This document shows, in pieces, positions 879 through 47,652 of a stretch of 47,724 nt of DNA. The translations under genes and the position numbers were made by a program. Below the pieces are notes generated by a model, which was not told the origin of the DNA, ran no database searches, and saw only the letters and a list, made by a program, of their open reading frames with translations. Origin of the DNA: a virus; IMG/VR virus record IMGVR_UViG_3300031974_005641, positions 1-47,724 of that record; one strand, written 5' to 3'. How positions within the stretch are numbered: position 1 is the first letter of the stretch; each line of letters starts with the position of its first letter.

Positions 879-953
879 GGGCCGTTAGCTCAGTGGTAGA
901 GCAGTTGGCTTTTAACCAATTGGTCGATGGTTCGAATCCATCACGGCCCACCA
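879..953 (+). tRNA. tRNA-Lys(UUU), integration target
   Basis: The acceptor stem GGGCCGT/ACGGCCC, D-arm, anticodon loop CTTTTAA with anticodon TTT, T-arm with GGTTCGAATCC, and an encoded CCA are all present. It is the only intact copy in the window. The phage crossover occurred in its 3' half, so the gene is restored at attL while attR holds only the 3' remnant. Confidence 0.97.
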
Positions 954-961
954 TTTTCTCT
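906..961 (+). repeat. attL core (56 bp)
   Basis: Bases 906-961 are identical to 47597-47652. The repeat starts in the anticodon stem and runs past the CCA end into TTTTCTCT. Sequences diverge at once on both sides. Core within the tRNA 3' half next to a tyrosine integrase is the standard pattern. Confidence 0.96.
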
Positions 962-1022: not shown

Positions 1023-2051
1023 TCACTTTTTGTTGCTCATTCTAATTACCGATGTGCGGTATTTCCGCGTCATTGCTATTCGGCTGTGCTGTAATAATTC
1101 TTGAGCCTGGGCTTCGCTTAATTGGCTTGCTCTCACTTTCCGCAAATCGTGCTCGGTGAATCGTTTGGTGACGATGCCGCTCTCTACTGCTTTGACCATG
1201 TGGCGCTGCCAGATTGAGTCAAAACCTGAAGTTTTGCCTTCGTCATCGATGTACGGCTTGCCTTCTCGGGTGTGAAATAAGTGCATTCCCCGTATGTTGC
1301 CCGGTAAAGCCTGAATTGCGCCGACGATTTCGCGGGTTTCAGGTTCCCATTCCATCAAAAAGCTTTGGTAGGGTGGCTTGTTATTCTTGAACTTCATGCC
1401 GTCATCGACAATATCACGCCTTTCTAGCCTTAATAATTCGCCTTTACGGCGTCCGGTCCATACTTTTAGCGCAACATAGAGCTGCCATTTAGCGGGCAGG
1501 GTGGCAGCGAATGCTGAGATATCTTCAAGCGGCGGCACGTAGTCTTTGCTTTGCAGCGAAAACTTAACGACCTTTTTCCCGGTCATTGGGTGATCCGGGC
1601 GTAATCCCCACTCGATGGCCTTGGTAAACATGTGGCTCAATACTTCTAAGTCAAGATTAGCCTTTTTCTCAGATTCAGTTTTGCCGGTATGGTCGCGGTA
1701 CTGATAAATATGGTGTGGCTGAATCGCCTTAACTGCGTTGTCACAGAACACTTTGCGTATCCGTAGCAAGGAGTATTGATTAGAGCGCTGCGTTGCTGGC
1801 GCCTTCTTTGGCAGGGCTTCGAGCGCGTAGCGATCGCAGAGTTGCGCCATGGTGTTCACGTTGCCTTGGTAGCCTACGCGCTCAGCAAATGTCTGGTGCG
1901 CTTCGTGCAGCGTTTTTCCAAGCTTAAACTCACTCTTGCCCTCCCAAAATTGCTCAGCACCTTTCGGCACTCGATACAAATACATGCCATAGCGGAAGCG
2001 CCAACCCTTGGGCAGCGACTTGTTTTCCTTATTACGCTTTTTGGGACTCAT
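1023..2051 (-). CDS. int: phage tyrosine integrase
   Basis: Catalyses site-specific recombination between attP and the tRNA-Lys attB. Catalytic residues are visible in order: R201 in TGRRKGEL, H301 and R304 in HDLRK, H322 in LQHS and the nucleophile Y331 in KYR. The N-terminal part fits an arm-binding and core-binding domain. It reads toward attL and its start overlaps the upstream excisionase-like gene by 4 bases (ATGA), so it is translationally coupled to it. The 342-residue length is typical. It lacks nothing essential that I can see. Confidence 0.95.
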   Translation of the reverse strand: MSPKKRNKENKSLPKGWRFRYGMYLYRVPKGAEQFWEGKSEFKLGKTLHEAHQTFAERVGYQGNVNTMAQLCDRYALEALPKKAPATQRSNQYSLLRIRKVFCDNAVKAIQPHHIYQYRDHTGKTESEKKANLDLEVLSHMFTKAIEWGLRPDHPMTGKKVVKFSLQSKDYVPPLEDISAFAATLPAKWQLYVALKVWTGRRKGELLRLERRDIVDDGMKFKNNKPPYQSFLMEWEPETREIVGAIQALPGNIRGMHLFHTREGKPYIDDEGKTSGFDSIWQRHMVKAVESGIVTKRFTEHDLRKVRASQLSEAQAQELLQHSRIAMTRKYRTSVIRMSNKK

Positions 2052-2251
2052 GACAGATCCAGATTAACGGCCTCGGTGCCCATGGCCTTTAACCTCGGGT
2101 CACTTGGGTGGAGTGACAAACACTTTACCTTGCCGTCGGGGGTTCGTCCAAGCACCACGTACCCTAGCTGCCTGAGCACTCGCTCTTGCGCAGTAGGTCG
2201 TTGACGCGACGTTACGCTTTCAATTTCAGCTTCAGTTAGCCATTGACTCAT
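2048..2251 (-). CDS. DUF4224-like protein, possible excisionase
   Basis: This 67-residue protein has the pattern LTEAEIESVTSRQRPTAQ followed by RQLGYVVLGRTPDGKV, which I associate with small DUF4224-type phage proteins usually found just before integrase. Such proteins look like single winged-helix DNA-binding domains. The 4-base overlaps with the genes on both sides suggest co-translation with integrase. A role in excision or integrase control is inferred from position, not shown. Confidence 0.75.
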   Translation of the reverse strand: MSQWLTEAEIESVTSRQRPTAQERVLRQLGYVVLGRTPDGKVKCLSLHPSDPRLKAMGTEAVNLDLS

Positions 2252-2469
2252 GCTCTATTTCCTCGGCCTATAAACCAATCCAGCGCATCGCAGATAGCCG
2301 GATATTCGTACCAGTTCTCGATTTCACGCGTTGCAGCGCGATCTCTGTAAAATGTTGGGCCTAGATAACGGTGCCAGTCCAAAAAGACGTGGGTGCCGTT
2401 TTTAAGCCGTAGGCGGTGCCATGAGCTGCTAGCGCAGACGATGGCCTGGCCAATGTTTGTACAGGGCAT
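2248..2469 (-). CDS. hypothetical phage protein
   Basis: A 73-residue protein rich in tryptophan and arginine (WHRLRLKNGTHVFLDWHRYLGP). I do not recognise a family. The ATG at 2469 is preceded by GGGAG at a good distance, and its stop overlaps the next gene by 4 bases. It is the first gene after the cassette-like block, and its leader begins at the GTTAAGC core that ends the last attC-like site. Confidence 0.75.
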   Translation of the reverse strand: MPCTNIGQAIVCASSSWHRLRLKNGTHVFLDWHRYLGPTFYRDRAATREIENWYEYPAICDALDWFIGRGNRA

Positions 2470-2487: not shown

Positions 2488-2547
2488 GCTTAACTTTGTC
2501 GCTATTTCGGATTATCAAGCCTGTTGGGTTGATAGCGTGTGTTAGCT
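2488..2547 (-). repeat. attC-like site 6 (array end)
   Basis: On the minus strand it starts with AGCTAAC (2547-2541), holding the stop codon of the upstream gene, and ends with GTTAAGC (2494-2488), a full GTTRRRY core. Inside, CGCTAT pairs with ATAGCG and TATCAA with TTGATA. Confidence 0.7.
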
Positions 2548-2787
2548 GCACACTGACTTCCCAAGATTTTCATAATATTCAAGCTGTTCATCCCACTCGA
2601 TTGGCTTCTTGATAACGCAAGATTCGCAATGGTATTCACCCTCATCAACTTCGTAACAGGTTCTTTCGTAGTAGACTTTTCCACCTTCGGTAATTGCTTT
2701 ATCACAAGTCGAGCACTCATCTTCGCCGTTCGATTTCCAGTCGCACAGCATAAATCCTGTAATTTTTAGAGCTTCTTTTATGTCCAT
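2542..2787 (-). CDS. small zinc-ribbon protein in a cassette
   Basis: An 81-residue acidic protein with two CxxC pairs, CSTC and CESC, about 25 residues apart, plus a lone Cys before the first pair. This suggests a small zinc-bound fold. The ATG at 2787 is chosen because GGAGG lies 6 bases upstream; the longer ORF would start inside that site and inside the preceding attC-like site. The stop codon is in the R'' core of the next palindrome. Function unknown; no family recognised. Confidence 0.75.
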   Translation of the reverse strand: MDIKEALKITGFMLCDWKSNGEDECSTCDKAITEGGKVYYERTCYEVDEGEYHCESCVIKKPIEWDEQLEYYENLGKSVCS

Positions 2788-2799
2788 TTCAGCCTCCGC

Positions 2800-2852
2800 A
2801 GCTAACAAACAATTGCAGCCAGACCTTCGGCTGCTGAATAAAAGGGTTATGC
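2800..2852 (-). repeat. attC-like site 5
   Basis: Minus strand: R'' GCATAAC (2852-2846), R' GTTAGCT (2806-2800), 53 bp. The arm TTCAGCAGCC pairs with GGCTGCAA leaving two extrahelical bases (CA). The R'' contains the XRE gene's stop codon. Confidence 0.75.
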
Positions 2853-3089
2853 GCCCACGACTCGACGCACTACAATTGTTTCTTCAACAACCTCAGTTTC
2901 ATCGGGCCATATGTCGTACACCGATTTTCCGAGCACACATGCAATGGCGTAGGCTGTCGTTATTTTAGGCGCGGAGCCGGTTTCTTTTTCGAGGTCGTGC
3001 AAGTGCGACTTACTTAGCCCGCACATATCACCAAGCCCTTCTAAAGTTAAGCCGGCATCCTGCCTAATTTTCTTCAAGTTGCTTTTCAT
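2847..3089 (-). CDS. XRE-family helix-turn-helix regulator
   Basis: An 80-residue protein with an HTH_3 domain over about residues 4-55 (NLKKIRQDAGLTLEGLGDMCGLSKSHLHDLEK), followed by a short acidic tail. The ATG at 3089 overlaps the stop of the Acb2-like gene (TGATG), so the two are co-translated and share one cassette. Likely a DNA-binding regulator of its own cassette. A longer reading frame begins 39 bases upstream but overlaps the previous gene without a ribosome site. Confidence 0.85.
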   Translation of the reverse strand: MKSNLKKIRQDAGLTLEGLGDMCGLSKSHLHDLEKETGSAPKITTAYAIACVLGKSVYDIWPDETEVVEETIVVRRVVGA

Positions 3090-3313
3090 CAAAAAGTTGT
3101 TGGCTGGGCAACGCCGCGAATCGCCCACATAAAACCTTGCTGCAAATTTGTTTTACCCAATGCAACATTGCGTTTATCTGTACTATTCGTTGCTTCAAGC
3201 TTGGCAATAAATTCGCCACACTTTTCAGCCAAAGCCTTGCCCTCATTCATCAAGTCAATTTCTTCCTGACTTAAATCACGGTAGCCTTTTATCTTCTTGT
3301 GTTGATTATCCAT
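3089..3313 (-). CDS. Acb2/Tad1-like anti-CBASS/anti-Thoeris protein
   Basis: Acb2/Tad1 proteins sponge the cyclic nucleotide or cyclic ADP-ribose signals of CBASS and Thoeris and so block abortive infection. This 74-residue protein has the family pattern: NQHKKIKGYRDLSQEEIDLMN at the start, a helical hairpin, and a C-terminal LQQGFMWAIRGVAQPTTF. The match is from my memory of the family. The ATG at 3313 has GGAG nine bases upstream. It is coupled to the XRE gene (TGATG) and bounded by attC-like sites, so it appears to travel as a cassette. Confidence 0.82.
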   Translation of the reverse strand: MDNQHKKIKGYRDLSQEEIDLMNEGKALAEKCGEFIAKLEATNSTDKRNVALGKTNLQQGFMWAIRGVAQPTTF

Positions 3314-3332
3314 CGCTTCTATCTCCGTCAGC

Positions 3333-3394
3333 GCATAACAAAGGTAGGCAGCAGGACGGCGCTGACGCTTCGCCGCTGCTACCAAGGGTTATGT
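3333..3394 (-). repeat. attC-like site 4
   Basis: Minus strand: R'' ACATAAC (3394-3388), R' GTTATGC (3339-3333), 62 bp. The arm GGTAGCAGC pairs with GCTGCCTACC with one bulged C on the 3' arm, and CGGCG pairs with CGCCG further in. The R'' holds the upstream gene's TAA. Confidence 0.8.
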
Positions 3395-3625
3395 TCCTAT
3401 GCCGTATAGTTGCTTCAAGTGCTCCGTTGCAGCCTCTCTCAGCTCCGTCATCGTCGTAACGTTAAAAAGTTTTTCATCGTTCCAATCTCCAGTATCGTAG
3501 AAAGCATGACCAGATCCATCGGGTTCTAAGTGCATCGTCACGTGGGTGTTCAGAATCGACCATTCTTCTTCTGGGCATCCGCAGCCTTCGTCGCTCAGTC
3601 CGCTTTTAAGAAGTTCACAATCCAT
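3389..3625 (-). CDS. hypothetical acidic protein in a cassette
   Basis: A 78-residue acidic protein with no family I recognise; residues 20-45 (WSILNTHVTMHLEPDGSGHAFYD) look like beta strands and the C-terminus (MTELREAATEHLKQLYG) like an amphipathic helix. GAGGT five bases before the ATG at 3625 sets the start. The stop codon sits in the R'' core of attC-like site 4. Cassette genes of unknown function like this are typical of environmental integrons. Confidence 0.75.
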   Translation of the reverse strand: MDCELLKSGLSDEGCGCPEEEWSILNTHVTMHLEPDGSGHAFYDTGDWNDEKLFNVTTMTELREAATEHLKQLYGIGT

Positions 3626-3637
3626 ATCTACCTCGGC

Positions 3638-3702
3638 ACATAACAATCAAAGGCAGCGCGACGGCGCATACAGCGCGCCTCGCCTGCTTGTGGGGGTTAG
3701 AA
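3638..3702 (-). repeat. attC-like site 3
   Basis: Minus strand: R'' TTCTAAC (3702-3696), R' GTTATGT (3644-3638), 65 bp. The 15-base arm AAGCAGGCGAGGCGC pairs fully with GCGCCGTCGCGCTGCCTT, leaving three single bulged bases, all on the 3' arm. Extrahelical bases on one arm are a defining attC feature. Confidence 0.82.
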
Positions 3703-4032
3703 CGCTATTCTCTTCACTAAGTCGAGCGCTGCTTTTTCGTCAACTTTTGTCGACCATTGAAGATGGTTCACGTTCCAGTAAATTTCCTCTGGGCACAGCC
3801 CGCCGCGCTGAGCCAGCCTTTCTAGTGTCTGGCTGTGTACATTTAGCGCCCAAGCATCATCAAGTTCGCTCCACTTCACCGAGGACGGGCAGTCTTTGTA
3901 TCTGTCATAACTCAGCACGGGGAACTTGCGTTCTAACAAGTCGCTGTTGCAGGAACTCGCTTTTGCTTCATCATTGCATTTGCAATACGTTCCAAACGCC
4001 CCGCACTCAAGCTCACAATTTTCTTTACTCAT
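3697..4032 (-). CDS. hypothetical cysteine-rich protein, may span a cassette boundary
   Basis: A 111-residue ORF starting at ATG 4032 with GAGGA eight bases upstream. The N-terminal third is rich in cysteine (CELECGAFGTYCKC) and the rest is unlike it. The core GTTAGAA that matches this unit's own R'' lies inside the ORF at 3937-3931, so the first 32 codons may belong to the preceding attC-like site and the original cassette product may start later (GTG in PVLSYDRY). No family recognised. Confidence 0.6.
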   Translation of the reverse strand: MSKENCELECGAFGTYCKCNDEAKASSCNSDLLERKFPVLSYDRYKDCPSSVKWSELDDAWALNVHSQTLERLAQRGGLCPEEIYWNVNHLQWSTKVDEKAALDLVKRIAF

Positions 4033-4061
4033 TCGCTCGTCCTCAAAGCTCAGGGTTATCC
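3931..4061 (-). repeat. candidate attC-like site 2 (131 bp)
   Basis: Minus strand: R'' GGATAAC (4061-4055), with the stop of the PP-loop gene, and R' GTTAGAA (3937-3931). TTGAGGAC pairs with GTTCCTGCAA with two bulges, but the rest of the arm is weakly paired. It is placed mainly because its two cores match those of the neighbouring units. Confidence 0.4.
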
Positions 4062-4784
4062 GTCCATGCACTCGCATGCCACGTCCGGTGTAAACAGATC
4101 GCCCTGCGCGTCATCAAATTCTAAAAAATCTTTCCAAGCCCATGATCGCGCCAATCCTTTCGCGTGTGTCAACTCTGCGTTTTCCTCCATGTGGATCGCT
4201 CGCGCGATCAGGTCTGGGTGATCTTCCTTGAGCTGCTTAATCTCATGCGGCTTTGTAGCTGGGCAGAAAAAGCAGGCGCTCTTTCCGGGCTGCGGCAAAC
4301 CTGCACGCGCTATCGCCTCAATACATTCCTGCCGCCCCCAGTTCCATTCAACCAGCGGGTATCGCGTGCCCTCGTATTTCTTCCGGTGCGCTTCGCCAGC
4401 ATCAATGCCAACCCAAAACCAAGGGGCGATGTGGCCTTGCTTCTTTAGCCACCGTTTTTGCGGCCTTATCTTGTATCGCTCTGAACAGCTCTTAAAACCA
4501 TAGGCAAGACCCGGCAATGCATTGCGGTTTAAGCAATCCTGCTCCAGCGTTATATGCTCGCGCACGGTCACGATCCGAGGAAAGCCAATTGATTCACACC
4601 AGTCGCTTACCGTATCTCTATGCGCGTAGGTTTCCGGTCTTTCCCCCCCTGTATCGGCAAATACAATAATGTCTGGCCTCTCGCCTCGCTCATACAGGCC
4701 CACCAACATCGCCGTGCTATTAGTCCCAGCTCCGTAGCTGACCACGGATGGACGGATAACAACTGTGTCAACTGCGACATTCAT
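4056..4784 (-). CDS. PAPS reductase-family PP-loop protein
   Basis: A 242-residue adenine nucleotide alpha-hydrolase-fold protein. The PP-loop SYGAGTNSTAML is near residues 16-27, followed by VFADTGGERPETY, and there are cysteines at CSERYK and CFFCPA. Phage relatives are annotated as PAPS reductase family; their substrates are mostly unknown and include nucleic acid thiolation candidates. The ATG at 4784 has GGAG nine bases upstream, but both lie inside attC-like site 1; a GTG at VVSYG just after the core is the alternative. Not linked to other dnd-type genes here. Confidence 0.8.
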   Translation of the reverse strand: MNVAVDTVVIRPSVVSYGAGTNSTAMLVGLYERGERPDIIVFADTGGERPETYAHRDTVSDWCESIGFPRIVTVREHITLEQDCLNRNALPGLAYGFKSCSERYKIRPQKRWLKKQGHIAPWFWVGIDAGEAHRKKYEGTRYPLVEWNWGRQECIEAIARAGLPQPGKSACFFCPATKPHEIKQLKEDHPDLIARAIHMEENAELTHAKGLARSWAWKDFLEFDDAQGDLFTPDVACECMDG

Positions 4785-4825
4785 TCCGCTTCGCTCCATT
4801 CATGCGCGTTACACATGGGTTATGT
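4754..4825 (-). repeat. attC-like site 1
   Basis: Minus strand: R'' ACATAAC (4825-4819), R' GTTATCC (4760-4754), 72 bp. The arm TGTGTAACGCGCAT pairs over all 14 bases with ATGTCGCAGTTGACACA, leaving three single bulged bases on the 3' arm. This is the cleanest attC-like fold of the set. Confidence 0.83.
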
Positions 4826-5107
4826 GTCTTCTCGCCACTGAATTGGCTCATCAACAGGTAGGTTGTAATCGGTTTCTGATCCATCGGTAGCCCAACCCGC
4901 TGGAAATCCGCCGCATCTTGTCCCGAGCATACAAACAGGGCGGTCACTCCAAAAAATTCTGCATTCTTCGCCGCCACCGTAATAACCTATAATTGTTTCA
5001 CCGCTTTTTGGTGCTTCGTCCATGCCACGCCACGTAACAACAGGCTGTTGAGCGGACTGCCGGCACTCTGGGCAGCTTCCGTTGCAATTTGCTAAATCTA
5101 CACACAT
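4820..5107 (-). CDS. hypothetical protein with phage WRxMxEAPKxG motif
   Basis: A 95-residue protein. The segment WRGMDEAPKSGETIIGYYGG and the C-terminal PIQWRE resemble the DUF551-like pattern common in small phage proteins (start motif plus final tryptophan motif). Four cysteines in the first 20 residues (MCVDLANCNGSCPEC) may bind a metal. AAGGAA before ATG 5107 sets the start. The stop lies in the R'' of attC-like site 1; no clean start core is visible upstream, so it may be the original insertion edge of the array. Confidence 0.7.
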   Translation of the reverse strand: MCVDLANCNGSCPECRQSAQQPVVTWRGMDEAPKSGETIIGYYGGGEECRIFWSDRPVCMLGTRCGGFPAGWATDGSETDYNLPVDEPIQWREDT

Positions 5108-5143
5108 ATTCAGTTCCTTATTTTCCAGCCGTAAAGCCAAGGG

Positions 5144-5464
5144 CTACACGTTACCGATCTCTAAGACTTTCCCCAGCCCGATAACGAAATACATCTGGCT
5201 ATTTTCAAGCTGCTCATTGTTGTCGGGCTCGCAATATTCGCCAGCCATTATTGCTGTGCCAATGAACTCGCAGCGGATAAAAGGCCGATGCTTGCCGTAG
5301 CCGTGCGTAAAGCGCACCTCGTCAAAATCTTGGCACCCATTTTTACCGAGCAATCGGCTCATCCAGTGCTGCTTATACTCGCGGTATTCAAATACCTTTT
5401 CGCCGCTGGCTATCAAGTCAAACCACGGCTTTTTGAGCGTTAGCTGCAGAACTGCCTTACTCAC
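5144..5464 (-). CDS. ASCH-domain protein
   Basis: A 106-residue protein with the ASCH opening LTLKKPWFDLIASGEKVFEYRE and the later strand FIRCEFIGTAI. ASCH domains bind RNA or modified nucleosides. No ATG is near; the GTG at 5464 overlaps the end of the upstream gene (GTGAGTAA) and puts the ASCH motif at the N-terminus, so it is preferred over the longer frame. A second ASCH gene lies at 23415. Confidence 0.8.
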   Translation of the reverse strand: MSKAVLQLTLKKPWFDLIASGEKVFEYREYKQHWMSRLLGKNGCQDFDEVRFTHGYGKHRPFIRCEFIGTAIMAGEYCEPDNNEQLENSQMYFVIGLGKVLEIGNV

Positions 5465-6586: not shown

Positions 6587-7091
6587 GCTCCATTTGTGCG
6601 AGTTCCTCGGCTGAAGGCGGTTCTAGCGTGATGTCGACTTGCTCTTTCATTAAGTGATCGAGCTTGCCCGACTCTTCCTTGTTTGGGTGGCACTTAATGC
6701 TGAATGTCAGCTCCACGGATCCACCTTGCTTTAAGTCGAATTTGAATGAGTCGAGCTTGGTGTTGATTAAGTAGATGTTCTCTTTGTCGCTCAGTCCGGT
6801 GTGGAATATCACGCGATAGCCTTGGCCCTCATAGCCGTATTGAATCGGCAGCAAGTCGGGAAAGCGCAGGTCTGGTAGTAGCTCTGGCTGGCCTTGTTCG
6901 GCAAGGTCGCACTTTTCGTCGTAGCGTTCAAAAAGTGCGGCGGTGAGGCCTTTTTCAAATTGGTCGAGCACGGTATTAGCCAAGGTCATTTTCATTTGCA
7001 GGGCTTGACCGTGTTTAATTTCTTGGCCGTGGTTCTCAGCAAAGGTAGTCACTTTGGTGAGGGTGGCGCGCTGGTTATCGAGTTTGAACAT
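6552..7091 (-). CDS. conserved phage recombination-module protein
   Basis: A 179-residue protein of a type I recall beside RecT/exonuclease pairs in Proteobacteria phages: N-terminal KLDNQRATLTKVTTFAENHG, central PDLLPIQYGYEGQGYRV, and C-terminal GGSVELTFSIKCHPNKEESGKLDHLMKEQVDITLEPP. Mostly predicted beta structure. GGAG precedes ATG 7091. It sits between the exonuclease and csrA genes. A role beside single-strand annealing recombination is likely by context only. Confidence 0.8.
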   Translation of the reverse strand: MFKLDNQRATLTKVTTFAENHGQEIKHGQALQMKMTLANTVLDQFEKGLTAALFERYDEKCDLAEQGQPELLPDLRFPDLLPIQYGYEGQGYRVIFHTGLSDKENIYLINTKLDSFKFDLKQGGSVELTFSIKCHPNKEESGKLDHLMKEQVDITLEPPSAEELAQMELDGYGEQEEAA

Positions 7092-7123
7092 GGGTGGTTC
7101 TCCTTGGGGGCGGGTAAAGCGGC

Positions 7124-8758
7124 TTACGCCGCTTGATCCTGAGCAATGAATTGGTTAATCACATCGGCAAGTGTTTTGTTGCCGTTGCCCACGTACTGGG
7201 TGCCGTCCTTCCAATGCGCAAAGGCGCTTACGCCGTCGATCCAGCCTTTTTGGTACAGGGTGAGTTCGTGCTCAGCCTTGGTGATGTTGCGGGCAATGCC
7301 TGCCGGCGCAGCGGCTACAGGGGTTGATTTCGACGCTTGCGGCACAGGCTGGCGCATATCCGGTGCCGCTTGCTCTGGTTCTGGTTGCGTTTGCTGTGCG
7401 GCTAGTTTGGCGGCTTCTTCACGGCGTAGCTTTTCAGCTTCTTCTTCGCGGATTTTTGCGCGTTCAGTTTCCACACGTTCGGCCTCGGCTTTTTCGTGCT
7501 CAGACTCCCGTGCAATAATGAGCGCGGCCAAGTCGTCGGTGGCTTTGTCGAGTAGTTGCAGTTTGTCGCTAAACAAAAATGCGTATTTTACTTTCTCGAA
7601 AAGAGCGAGGTTTGCGCGGATTTTTTCAGCCACTTCATTAGCTTCAATCTTGGCGCGGGCGACTTCATCATCAGCCGCACTTTGCAGTGTGGCCACGGTG
7701 CGCTTGCCTTTCATTACGCCGTTAAAATCGGTGACAATCTTGGGCATGTGGGCGCCACCTAAGCTGGTATCGAGCTTGGCGATATGATCGTCGACCAGTT
7801 TCCGCGCAGCTTGGGCGATTTCCAACTTGACCTCTTTCTTACGCTCGGTAACCAGTTTATTGAGTTCAAGGCGCTTGTTGCGCATTTGCTCCTTGAGTCG
7901 GTCAACCGTATTAAACAACTCTTCAATGCTGGCTGTTTTGGCCAACGCTTGAGCCTTAACGGTTTCGATTTCCTTCTCAGCCTTTTCAAAGAACTTTACA
8001 AAGGCGTCGGCGTCGGCAAAGTCTTGATCTGTTTTTAGGTCGGTTTTAACAGCCTTGATCTTGGCGGTGACCACTTGTTCATAGGTGGCGATGTTGGTGT
8101 CTTTGACTTCACCCGTTAAATCCATAAACAGCGCGGGGAGTTTGTCGATAACATCAGCCACGGGCGCGGGCTGGTATTCCGCTTTTTTGTAGCCTTTCAC
8201 GTCTTCGTCGAATTGCTTCCAGCCTGCTAGCAGGGCTTTAGCGTCGGCATTGTCTAGTGTTGCCCAACAATACACGCAGTTTTCCTCGGTGCCGTCGCTG
8301 ACCATGTAAAGGCACTTCTCGGCACCACTGACCATGAGCTGCTGCACAACCTGCCAGTGATCTTCTGGTGGCACTTCACCGCGGCTAACGCATTCGGCCT
8401 TGGCCGCGTTCCACTGCTTATGCTCCCAAATAACATCTTCCATCATGGTGACGCCGTCGAAGCTGGCGAGCAGATAGCCATCATCGTCGGTGGCCGTGGC
8501 GGGGTAGAGGTCTTCACCAACAATGGACTCGGCAATGGGGCGAGCTAGCGCCTCAACTTCATGGCCTTTATCGAGGATATTGGCCTGCACCCAGTCGCTG
8601 AACTCTTGTTCGCTGCCGGTGGATTTTATGTGCAGCAAATCATTGCGGCTGGCGTTCTTTGATGCGCCCATCATCATTGATGCTTCTGAGGCGGTATTGT
8701 GGGTGGCGCGGGCCAATATCCATTCCCGCGAACCCTGCAATAAATCAAGTAGTTTCAT
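7124..8758 (-). CDS. YqaJ/lambda-exonuclease-like nuclease with coiled-coil tail
   Basis: A 544-residue 5'-3' double-strand exonuclease that would feed 3' ends to RecT. The YqaJ nuclease fold covers about residues 1-200: GSREWILARATHNTASEASMMMG, then ASFDGVTMMEDVIWEHKQW (the acidic and lysine catalytic residues). Residues 240-480 form a long charged coiled coil, roughly doubling the usual length. A small C-terminal domain (YQKGWIDGVSAFAHWKDGTQYVG) closes it. GGAG lies upstream of ATG 8758. The long tail may tether RecT or DNA ends. Confidence 0.88.
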   Translation of the reverse strand: MKLLDLLQGSREWILARATHNTASEASMMMGASKNASRNDLLHIKSTGSEQEFSDWVQANILDKGHEVEALARPIAESIVGEDLYPATATDDDGYLLASFDGVTMMEDVIWEHKQWNAAKAECVSRGEVPPEDHWQVVQQLMVSGAEKCLYMVSDGTEENCVYCWATLDNADAKALLAGWKQFDEDVKGYKKAEYQPAPVADVIDKLPALFMDLTGEVKDTNIATYEQVVTAKIKAVKTDLKTDQDFADADAFVKFFEKAEKEIETVKAQALAKTASIEELFNTVDRLKEQMRNKRLELNKLVTERKKEVKLEIAQAARKLVDDHIAKLDTSLGGAHMPKIVTDFNGVMKGKRTVATLQSAADDEVARAKIEANEVAEKIRANLALFEKVKYAFLFSDKLQLLDKATDDLAALIIARESEHEKAEAERVETERAKIREEEAEKLRREEAAKLAAQQTQPEPEQAAPDMRQPVPQASKSTPVAAAPAGIARNITKAEHELTLYQKGWIDGVSAFAHWKDGTQYVGNGNKTLADVINQFIAQDQAA

Positions 8759-18079: not shown

Positions 18080-18209
18080 TCTGGTGATGCCAACGGCGCA
18101 ACGGATCAACAACTGCGCACTGTGCGGCTGGGAATACCTGGGCGACGGTGTTTTTGCCAAGGGCGAGCTGTTGGGCTGGTTCACAACACGGGGGTTCAAG
18201 AAGCAATGA
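18072..18209 (+). CDS. very small nin-region protein
   Basis: A 45-residue gene from GTG 18072 (AGGA eight bases upstream; an ATG at 18087 is in frame). It carries CALCGWEY, a single CxxC. It overlaps the rusA stop and ends in ATGA at 18206-18209. No family recognised. Confidence 0.55.
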   Translation: MPDLVMPTAQRINNCALCGWEYLGDGVFAKGELLGWFTTRGFKKQ

Positions 18210-18223
18210 ACGGGAGCGCGGCA

Positions 18224-18808
18224 ATGCGACTGGATATACCGGCAGAGTTTGATCTGTTTGAAATGCGGGCCCTGGTGCGCTGGGCATTTGATATTGATGC
18301 GCCCAAGTCGTTTTCGATGCTGGCGGAAATGCAAACGAGGCTGGCCAAGGGCGAGCGCAAGCTAAAGCGATCCACCGGCAGCTGGGCAACGCAAGTCAGC
18401 GCCACGGCAACGCGGCGGGCACAGTACAGCACCATACCGCTAACCGATGACGACTTTCTGCGCAGCCGCGTGGTGAGGGCCATTTTCCAACTGGAATACC
18501 CTCACCCGGTAACCCTTAGCGCGCGTTTCCACACCAACGCAACCGCAAAGCGCGAAAGCATCGAGATCTGCTTGCACTTGCTAATGCGTGAGTTTCGCCG
18601 CCGCACGCCGGAAACCAAAGAGCGGATTCAGCGGCTGGCCGAGGCCTATTTCCACTCACCGTTCGGCGTGTCCGAGCCGTGGGAGGTGCTGGGCATGACC
18701 GCAGATGACTGGAAAAACTCAACCGAAAAACAGAATTGGGCTGACGTGAAGCGCTTTGCTGGCGGCATGGAAAGTGAAGCGATGCAGGTGTTGTGGGTGG
18801 GGTTGTAA
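18224..18808 (+). CDS. late-region regulator candidate (Q position)
   Basis: A 194-residue helical, basic protein (DIPAEFDLFEMRALVRWAFDIDAPKSFSML...LRSRVVRAIFQLEYPHPVTLSARF...). GGGAG before ATG 18224 favours this start over ATG 18206. It is the last sizeable gene before the late promoter candidate and lysis genes, where lambda-like phages have Q. I see no clear match to a Q family, so antitermination is inferred from place only. Confidence 0.6.
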   Translation: MRLDIPAEFDLFEMRALVRWAFDIDAPKSFSMLAEMQTRLAKGERKLKRSTGSWATQVSATATRRAQYSTIPLTDDDFLRSRVVRAIFQLEYPHPVTLSARFHTNATAKRESIEICLHLLMREFRRRTPETKERIQRLAEAYFHSPFGVSEPWEVLGMTADDWKNSTEKQNWADVKRFAGGMESEAMQVLWVGL

Positions 18809-18846
18809 CCCCATTTTCAGTGGGAACGAATGAGGAGGAACGACGA

Positions 18847-19158
18847 GTGAGTGATCCGATGCAAAAATTTGTTATGCCTGACGACGCATATGCGTTGCGC
18901 CCAGTGCGCTTTATGCGTAACGAGCAGCTGAAGTATTACTCCGCTGTTACGTTCCCAGAAAACCCTCGCGCTGGGTGTGACATCTACCGTCGCCGCTGCG
19001 ATATTACTGGGGGCATAGCAGCAGGCCAAGACGATGCCACCGGAATTTGTGACATTTTAAATGAAAGAGACGACATTGTTGCGGATTTCTGGTTAAACGA
19101 TAAGGGATTGAAGTTTCTATATAGCAAACTTAATTTGCGCGTAGATACCGAAGCATAA
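18847..19158 (+). CDS. hypothetical protein
   Basis: A 103-residue protein (VSDPMQKFVMPDDAYALRPVRFMRNEQLKYYSAVTFPENPRAGCDIYRRRCDITGG...). GGAGG seven bases before the GTG at 18847 sets the start. It has three cysteines and no recognised family. Last gene of the early right operon. Confidence 0.7.
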   Translation: MSDPMQKFVMPDDAYALRPVRFMRNEQLKYYSAVTFPENPRAGCDIYRRRCDITGGIAAGQDDATGICDILNERDDIVADFWLNDKGLKFLYSKLNLRVDTEA

Positions 19159-19168
19159 CGCCGCTATT

Positions 19169-19189
19169 CGCGGGCCGCTAGGCCCCGCG
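19169..19189 (+). other. GC-rich hairpin after the early right operon
   Basis: CGCGGGCC and GGCCCCGCG pair around GCTA with one bulge. There is no T tract, so it may be a Rho-type or processing hairpin. Confidence 0.4.
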
Positions 19190-19214
19190 CAATGCAAGTG
19201 TTATTGATCAAAAC

Positions 19215-47596: not shown

Positions 47597-47652
47597 TGGC
47601 TTTTAACCAATTGGTCGATGGTTCGAATCCATCACGGCCCACCATTTTCTCT
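47597..47652 (+). repeat. attR core (56 bp), tRNA-Lys remnant
   Basis: Identical to attL 906-961. It keeps the anticodon loop, T-arm and acceptor 3' strand, but the upstream sequence is phage DNA, so no tRNA is made from it. Confidence 0.96.

Follow-up and report, generated by a model that had tools for sequence, protein, structure and literature searches.

What are the palindromes that separate a run of small leftward genes near the left end of a prophage of a marine bacterium, and by what route do those genes come and go? The locus lies in the IMG/VR virus record IMGVR_UViG_3300031974_005641, whose full 47,724 bp (hereafter the window) were analysed and which holds a whole prophage, bounded by 55-bp repeats, in a tRNA-Lys gene 3' of queC. 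An earlier note, made from the sequence alone, had read the palindromes as boundaries of integron-type gene cassettes in the prophage early operon, and this reading is borne out by a chain of matching recombination cores, by an independent model of attC sites and by cassette boundaries shared between phages. We consider it very likely that the array is a cluster of attC sites lacking an integron integrase (CALIN), made up of inverted cassettes that are exchanged singly, most likely by a host integron integrase (IntI) acting in trans. It would thus be an integron-type cassette cluster at the integrase-proximal end of the early operon of a temperate phage.

Cores and attC sites of the array

The array is situated between the phage gene phrog_7990 and the early operon. 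Its units and sites, together with those of a second locus, are as follows; E-values for sites are from the covariance model described below.

2488-2547, plus strand: site S6, with core GTTAGCT and a poor attC-like hairpin, at the integrase-side end of the array
2542-2846, plus strand: cassette C5, crossover to crossover, with a gene at 2542-2787 (minus) for an 81-residue protein with paired cysteines, and attC S5
2800-2852, plus strand: attC S5 (E = 1.5)
2847-3388, plus strand: cassette C4, with an Acb2/Tad1 gene at 3089-3313 (minus), a helix-turn-helix (HTH) gene at 2847-3089 (minus), and attC S4
3089-3313, minus strand: gene for an Acb2-like protein of 74 residues, of the type directed against the cyclic-oligonucleotide-based antiphage signaling system (anti-CBASS; PF24729, 8e-19; PDB 8h2j, 2e-16, and 8ixz, 1e-15)
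3333-3394, plus strand: attC S4 (E = 0.032)
3389-3696, plus strand: cassette C3, with a gene at 3389-3625 (minus) for 78 residues, and attC S3
3638-3702, plus strand: attC S3 (E = 0.0044)
3697-4055, plus strand: cassette C2, with a gene at 3697-4032 (minus) for 111 residues, whose start codon lies within attC S2
3931-4061, plus strand: attC-like site S2, 131 bp, with a weak hairpin
4056-4819, plus strand: cassette C1, with a gene at 4056-4784 (minus) for a protein like phosphoadenosine phosphosulfate (PAPS) reductase (phrog_424, 4e-36), and attC S1
4754-4825, plus strand: attC S1
4820-5150, plus strand: probable sixth cassette C0, with a gene at 4820-5107 (minus) and a degenerate attC at 5032-5156; core match 6/7
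18803-18877, minus strand: attC-like site 5' of the solitary gene of the second locus, with a weak hairpin
18809-19159, plus strand: second-locus cassette, its gene on the plus strand, with stop codon TAA at 19156-19158 in the core GCATAAC and an exactly matching start core GTTATGC at 18871
19153-19206, minus strand: second-locus attC, opposite to its gene (E = 0.31)

The earlier note had described five units, each beginning with a core that exactly matches the reverse complement of the core at its own end, and all five stand. They are delimited by 7/7 core pairs at 4055-4760, 3696-3937, 3388-3644, 2846-3339 and 2541-2806, with cores GTTATCC, GTTAGAA, GTTATGT, GTTATGC and GTTAGCT, respectively. 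Neighbouring units differ, permuting the cores in all 120 ways yields five matches just once, and within a single palindrome the two cores match at just 4-6 of 7 positions. The placement of the stop codon in the core holds as well, as the TAA inside the core terminates all six open reading frames (ORFs) that end in the array (4820, 4056, 3697, 3389, 2847 and 2542). The range first proposed, 2488-4825, covers the five units and proves too narrow, since the array extends to a sixth unit at 4819-5038 (C0), with cores GTTACGT/GTTATGT matching at 6/7 positions, and a seventh, solitary cassette with an exact GTTATGC/GCATAAC pair lies on the other strand at 18803-19206. The solitary inverted cassette directly follows the stop codon of an ORF at 18122-18808, itself terminating in a TAAC core, and it looks like an insertion at a secondary site.

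We scored chains of units under three requirements, namely an exact core match, a stop codon in the core and a site spacing of 40-170 bp. The longest exact chain comprises five units in the window and none across 69 real bacterial loci (1.0 Mb); among 200 order-1 Markov simulations (9.5 Mb) it was zero in 188 and two in 12. The earlier claim that such a pattern arises only if units moved as circles was too strong in its "only", although the pattern is strong evidence of circle-type recombination.

The sites also have the expected architecture. S1, S3, S4 and S5 show R'' (NNNTAAC) and R' (GTTANNN) cores around a hairpin with unpaired spacers, and S1, S3 and S4 carry two to three extrahelical bases on the 5' arm of the plus strand. 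The first description of palindromes of 53-72 bp between the genes does not hold for S2, which is longer and folds weakly, and S6 is a poor attC. A covariance model was built from eight short attC sites of class 1 plasmid integrons (L086-L090) and of an IntI-linked chromosomal integron (L094), with no phage sequence included; an energy-only hairpin scan was dropped because it gave many false positives. The covariance model, a type of check that the earlier note had proposed, recovers S3 and S4 and, more weakly, the second-locus site and S5, and leaves S1, S2 and S6 unreported. All of these matches are on the strand opposite to the genes. The model is insensitive, reporting just 2 sites at E<=3 in the array of a related prophage (L012, below). 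It gives 41 hits in nine other array-bearing phage loci, with a top score of 54.9 bits, and 60 hits in five chromosomal integrons, every one in the IntI-to-array direction. The top-scoring phage site (L197, 3157-3212) closely resembles class 1-type attC sites. A further match in the window at 5408-5445 was taken as chance, because its 38 nt lie inside a gene and form no hairpin, and an Rfam search of the window gave nothing besides the tRNA, Rfam having no attC family. In structure and sequence, the palindromes are thus confirmed as attC-type sites bounding gene cassettes in the early operon.

With at least two attC sites and no intI, the array qualifies as a CALIN. It is not a complete integron, which would have an intI gene, an attI site and a Pc promoter, as IntI was not found in the window record and the prophage's own integrase scores 13 bits against the IntI family.

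Inverted polarity of the cassettes

In class 1 and chromosomal attC sites, the strand reading TAACAA...GCGTTA carries the extra bases on its 5' arm. By the same token, the bulged bases and the TAACAA...GGGTTA flanks of the window array place attC on the plus strand and the genes on the minus strand, with the reverse at the second locus, where the site is minus-strand and the gene plus-strand. Because the attC strand is opposite to the genes, each attC goes with the gene that follows and not with the one that precedes it. The usual gene-then-attC order, which the earlier note had assumed, therefore fails in every unit of the window: attC precedes the gene.

We then counted polarity more widely, scoring attC orientation first and the longest ORF second. 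Across 13 chromosomal IntI-linked loci, 71 cassettes are forward and 3 reversed, and the reversed ones in L252 and L092 are a transposase and a dubious frame. The viral loci, taken regardless of orientation, give 12 forward and 52 reversed cassettes (Fisher's test, p ~1e-22, a value that is overstated as loci are not independent). Nearly every phage array analysed has the inverted layout. A rare reversed cassette with its stop codon in the core occurs in a chromosomal integron of the metagenome-assembled genome (MAG) F7 (L093, 3291-3649), whose host also carries the array prophage L012; it is a candidate for a phage-derived cassette. In one phage (L182) there are two arrays, at 861-2809 and 6999-7890, with genes on opposite strands, and both are inverted relative to their genes.

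It is improbable, in our view, that the inversion is an ascertainment artefact. The viral loci were drawn from a search for Acb2 and from one attC pattern, and they are not a random sample, as this explanation would have it. Gene orientation was used in neither search, however, and the unselected viral count is still 52:12 in favour of reversal. Furthermore, the independently published phages H101, P12002L and MW202573 have attC sites opposite to their genes, and the two loci of the window are both inverted even though their genes are on opposite strands.

Within a cassette the order is then attC, ribosome-binding site and gene or genes, with the stop codon at the end supplying the recombination core. 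Since attC is 5' of the gene, its recombinogenic bottom strand is the coding strand, and each cassette would be read from the promoter of the phage operon. This explains how phage arrays can sit inside operons without the integron promoter Pc. A reason for the polarity itself may lie in replication. When the Vibrio cholerae chromosomal integron is inverted, the bottom strands of its attC sites come to lie on the lagging-strand template, and excision increases (PMC11023631). An inverted cassette whose gene points with the fork would have the same strand layout, which could, speculatively and by analogy, explain the phage arrangement. The cumulative GC skew of the window has its minimum near 6 kb, consistent with such an explanation and confounded by gene orientation. 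We put forward only tentatively the broader proposal that phages infecting a wide range of hosts draw on a common pool of inverted cassettes and borrow host IntI to exchange counter-defence genes singly. The inversion would then be adaptive: where genes run with replication, it would make the recombinogenic attC strand both lagging-strand template and coding strand and so keep phage cassettes highly mobile, with chromosomal ones remaining stable.

Exchange between phages and the probable mobilising enzyme

Evidence for movement of single cassettes comes from Acb2 homologues retrieved from viral contigs. L163 and L171 share a two-gene cassette (Acb2 and a 67-residue ORF) with ~95% identity in the coding part, and on both sides the resemblance stops at TAA/C. 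The same cassette, with its upstream attC, stands in different surroundings in L271 (identical to L272) and L274. Pairwise, the cassette is 82-95% identical in DNA over 504-588 bp among these four 10-kb loci, which have in common at most one further short stretch, of 141 bp or less. The shared block includes the attC 5' of the gene and terminates at the core 3' of it, as inverted cassettes predict and forward cassettes forbid. Single-unit movement with G/TT boundaries is therefore seen in four phage loci with homologous Acb2 cassettes, not directly for a cassette of the window, and it supports the view that cassettes of the window type move one at a time. Acb2 also lies between matching cores in L106, and another small gene is common to the arrays of L012 and L171, with a third copy in L276. 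In L189 a cassette is duplicated with the same type of boundary: blocks on its reverse strand (1157-1357, 1695-1938, 3190-3474 and 3874-4074) are 81-93% identical and end at cores, which suggests repeated copying or reinsertion of a cassette in one array.

Related prophages show gain and loss at the site itself. L012, in MAG F7, has an integrase 46% identical to that of the window and occupies the same tRNA-Lys/queC locus, where it carries, in the same place, an array of eight or nine units (7/8 exact) with entirely different genes. Prophages L010, L011 and L018, with related integrases, have no attC at that place. The earlier note had looked to related prophages for either differing cassette content or palindromes conserved without gain or loss of cassettes, and L012 set against the other three shows the former.

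Searches of the phages collection gave no match to the DNA of the array region or to cassette C3, and no relative of the PAPS-reductase cassette was found in viral contigs. Exchange of such cassettes with chromosomal integrons, which the earlier note had envisaged, is only putative: the 81-residue C5 gene, the sole window cassette searched in this way, is unmatched in 140 Halieaceae genomes, and the record holds no IntI. The C3 gene itself (3389-3625) has six viral relatives (L258-L263, with the motif DxCGCPEEEW) that are ordinary phage genes outside cassettes, suggesting that a phage gene turns into a cassette once it gains attC flanks.

The left end of the prophage runs from the integrase gene through an excisionase-like gene and phrog_7990 to small leftward genes and on to the genes for YqaJ and RecT.

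906-960, plus strand: left prophage attachment site, the 3' part of tRNA-Lys, a 55-bp direct repeat of 47597-47651 (tRNA prediction and direct comparison)
1023-2051, minus strand: phage tyrosine integrase (PF00589), not an integron integrase
2048-2251, minus strand: excisionase-like small protein (DUF4224, weak match)
2248-2469, minus strand: phage gene phrog_7990, the first gene past the array on the integrase side
47597-47651, plus strand: right prophage attachment site, the 55-bp repeat (direct comparison)

We hypothesize that single cassettes would be gained, lost and exchanged at the G/TT (TAA/C) crossover by IntI supplied in trans from a host that has an integron in its chromosome. Of 100 Halieaceae genomes, 33 contain IntI, as does the genome that holds L012, and it was not found in seven array phages. 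From this we infer that host IntI is most likely the mobilising enzyme and that the array may be active at present.

Some observations weigh against this interpretation. The sites S2, S6 and S0 are weak, the E-values of the window sites are modest, and the assignment of these sites as attC draws on structure and a sequence model. Searches with C1, C3 and C5 found no window cassette in a second array, and the host of this prophage is only presumed to carry an IntI. The viral records are partial and phylogenetically non-independent (L163, L164 and L166 are near-identical), and a few phage arrays, those of TJE1 and L191, are forward. The array of L191 (5949-7330) comprises two forward cassettes. 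Its record is classified as viral, and the array could be a genuine exception or a piece of a chromosomal integron.

A rival explanation is a static relic, that is, a block of a chromosomal integron captured by imprecise prophage excision or by homologous recombination and now immobile. Published Vibrio phages took segments of sedentary chromosomal integrons in this manner (PMC9892861), the record is without IntI, and several window sites are degenerate. We regard this origin as unlikely given that cassettes in chromosomal arrays point the other way (71:3), that L012 has an array of different genes at the same place, and that a cassette of this kind passes on its own from phage to phage.

Tyrosine recombinases have their core chemistry in common, and the array lies beside the integrase gene in both the window and L012. 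The phage's own integrase or another phage recombinase might thus act on attC, making the system phage-run and not a parasite of host IntI. This seems to us less likely again, since 8 of 15 array-type virus records, which may be partial, contain no tyrosine recombinase at all, the window integrase barely resembles the IntI family, and related integrases are found without any array. Finally, it is very improbable that the palindromes are no more than terminators between genes, or hairpins of the mRNA, with core matches imposed by stop codons and base composition. Their position among co-transcribed genes, the stop codons in them and the possible action of attC sites as weak terminators (PMC9892861) would fit. 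However, exact-core chains are absent by chance and in other bacterial loci, an independent attC model detects the palindromes, and identity between phages stops at the crossover base, a boundary test that refutes this as the sole explanation.

Cargo and comparison with known systems

The cargo of the window comprises the Acb2-like protein, an HTH protein, the PAPS-reductase-like protein and unknowns. The first has the hairpin domain and is similar over its full length to solved Acb2, which places it in the Acb2/Tad1 sponge family, and it is probably, by sequence, a blocker of bacterial immunity. Its 20 N-terminal residues are identical to those of Acb2 in PDB 8h2j and 8ixz and the C-terminus is shared; it differs in its length of 74 residues versus 92-93 and in being carried, next to an HTH gene, within an attC cassette. 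The 53 cassette proteins of ten arrays match just eight Pfam families, four of which (Acb2/Tad1, Lar, MT-A70 and Mom) are of counter-defence or anti-restriction types, with the Lar, MT-A70 and Mom-like proteins in arrays other than that of the window. Counter-defence as the main benefit of the cargo is plausible on these few assigned proteins, and the pool, common mainly to phages, would hold such genes and other small accessory genes. The arrangement would give unrelated phages a site-specific, gene-by-gene route for sharing anti-CBASS and anti-restriction genes by means of a host recombinase. Chromosomal integrons are seen as gene stores of bacteria, and their integrase would also serve phages.

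Class 1 cassettes (plasmid loci L086-L090) share with those of the window the G/TT crossover in R' and two extrahelical bases on one arm, whereas class 1 integrons differ in their resistance cargo, forward polarity, intI1 and Pc promoter. The sedentary chromosomal integrons of Halieaceae and relatives (L093, L094, L244 and L252) follow the same attC grammar, with R''/R' cores, a TAACAA flank, extrahelical bases and a stop codon often in the core, such that one model finds both; they possess intI and the gene-then-attC order (71/74), whereas intI is absent from the phage array and its cassettes are inverted.

The closest precedent is the description of attC clusters without intI in temperate and virulent phages (TJE1, H101, P12002L and MW202573; PMC9892861, Qi et al. 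2023), which are CALINs like the array of the window. Five of six tested phage attC bottom strands, including those of H101 and P12002L, recombine with IntI1, several of them at attI1 (PMC9892861). When scored here, three of the four phage records are inverted like the window and TJE1 is forward. The text of that study gives no rule on the orientation of genes relative to attC, no cassette-precise exchange between phages and no Acb2, Lar or Mom cargo. A literature search, excluding bioRxiv and subscription papers, likewise returned no account of inverted phage cassettes as a rule, of boundary-precise exchange between phages or of such cargo. Thus, attC clusters in phages were already known, whereas the inverted architecture, the cassette-precise exchange and the counter-defence cargo appear to be new.

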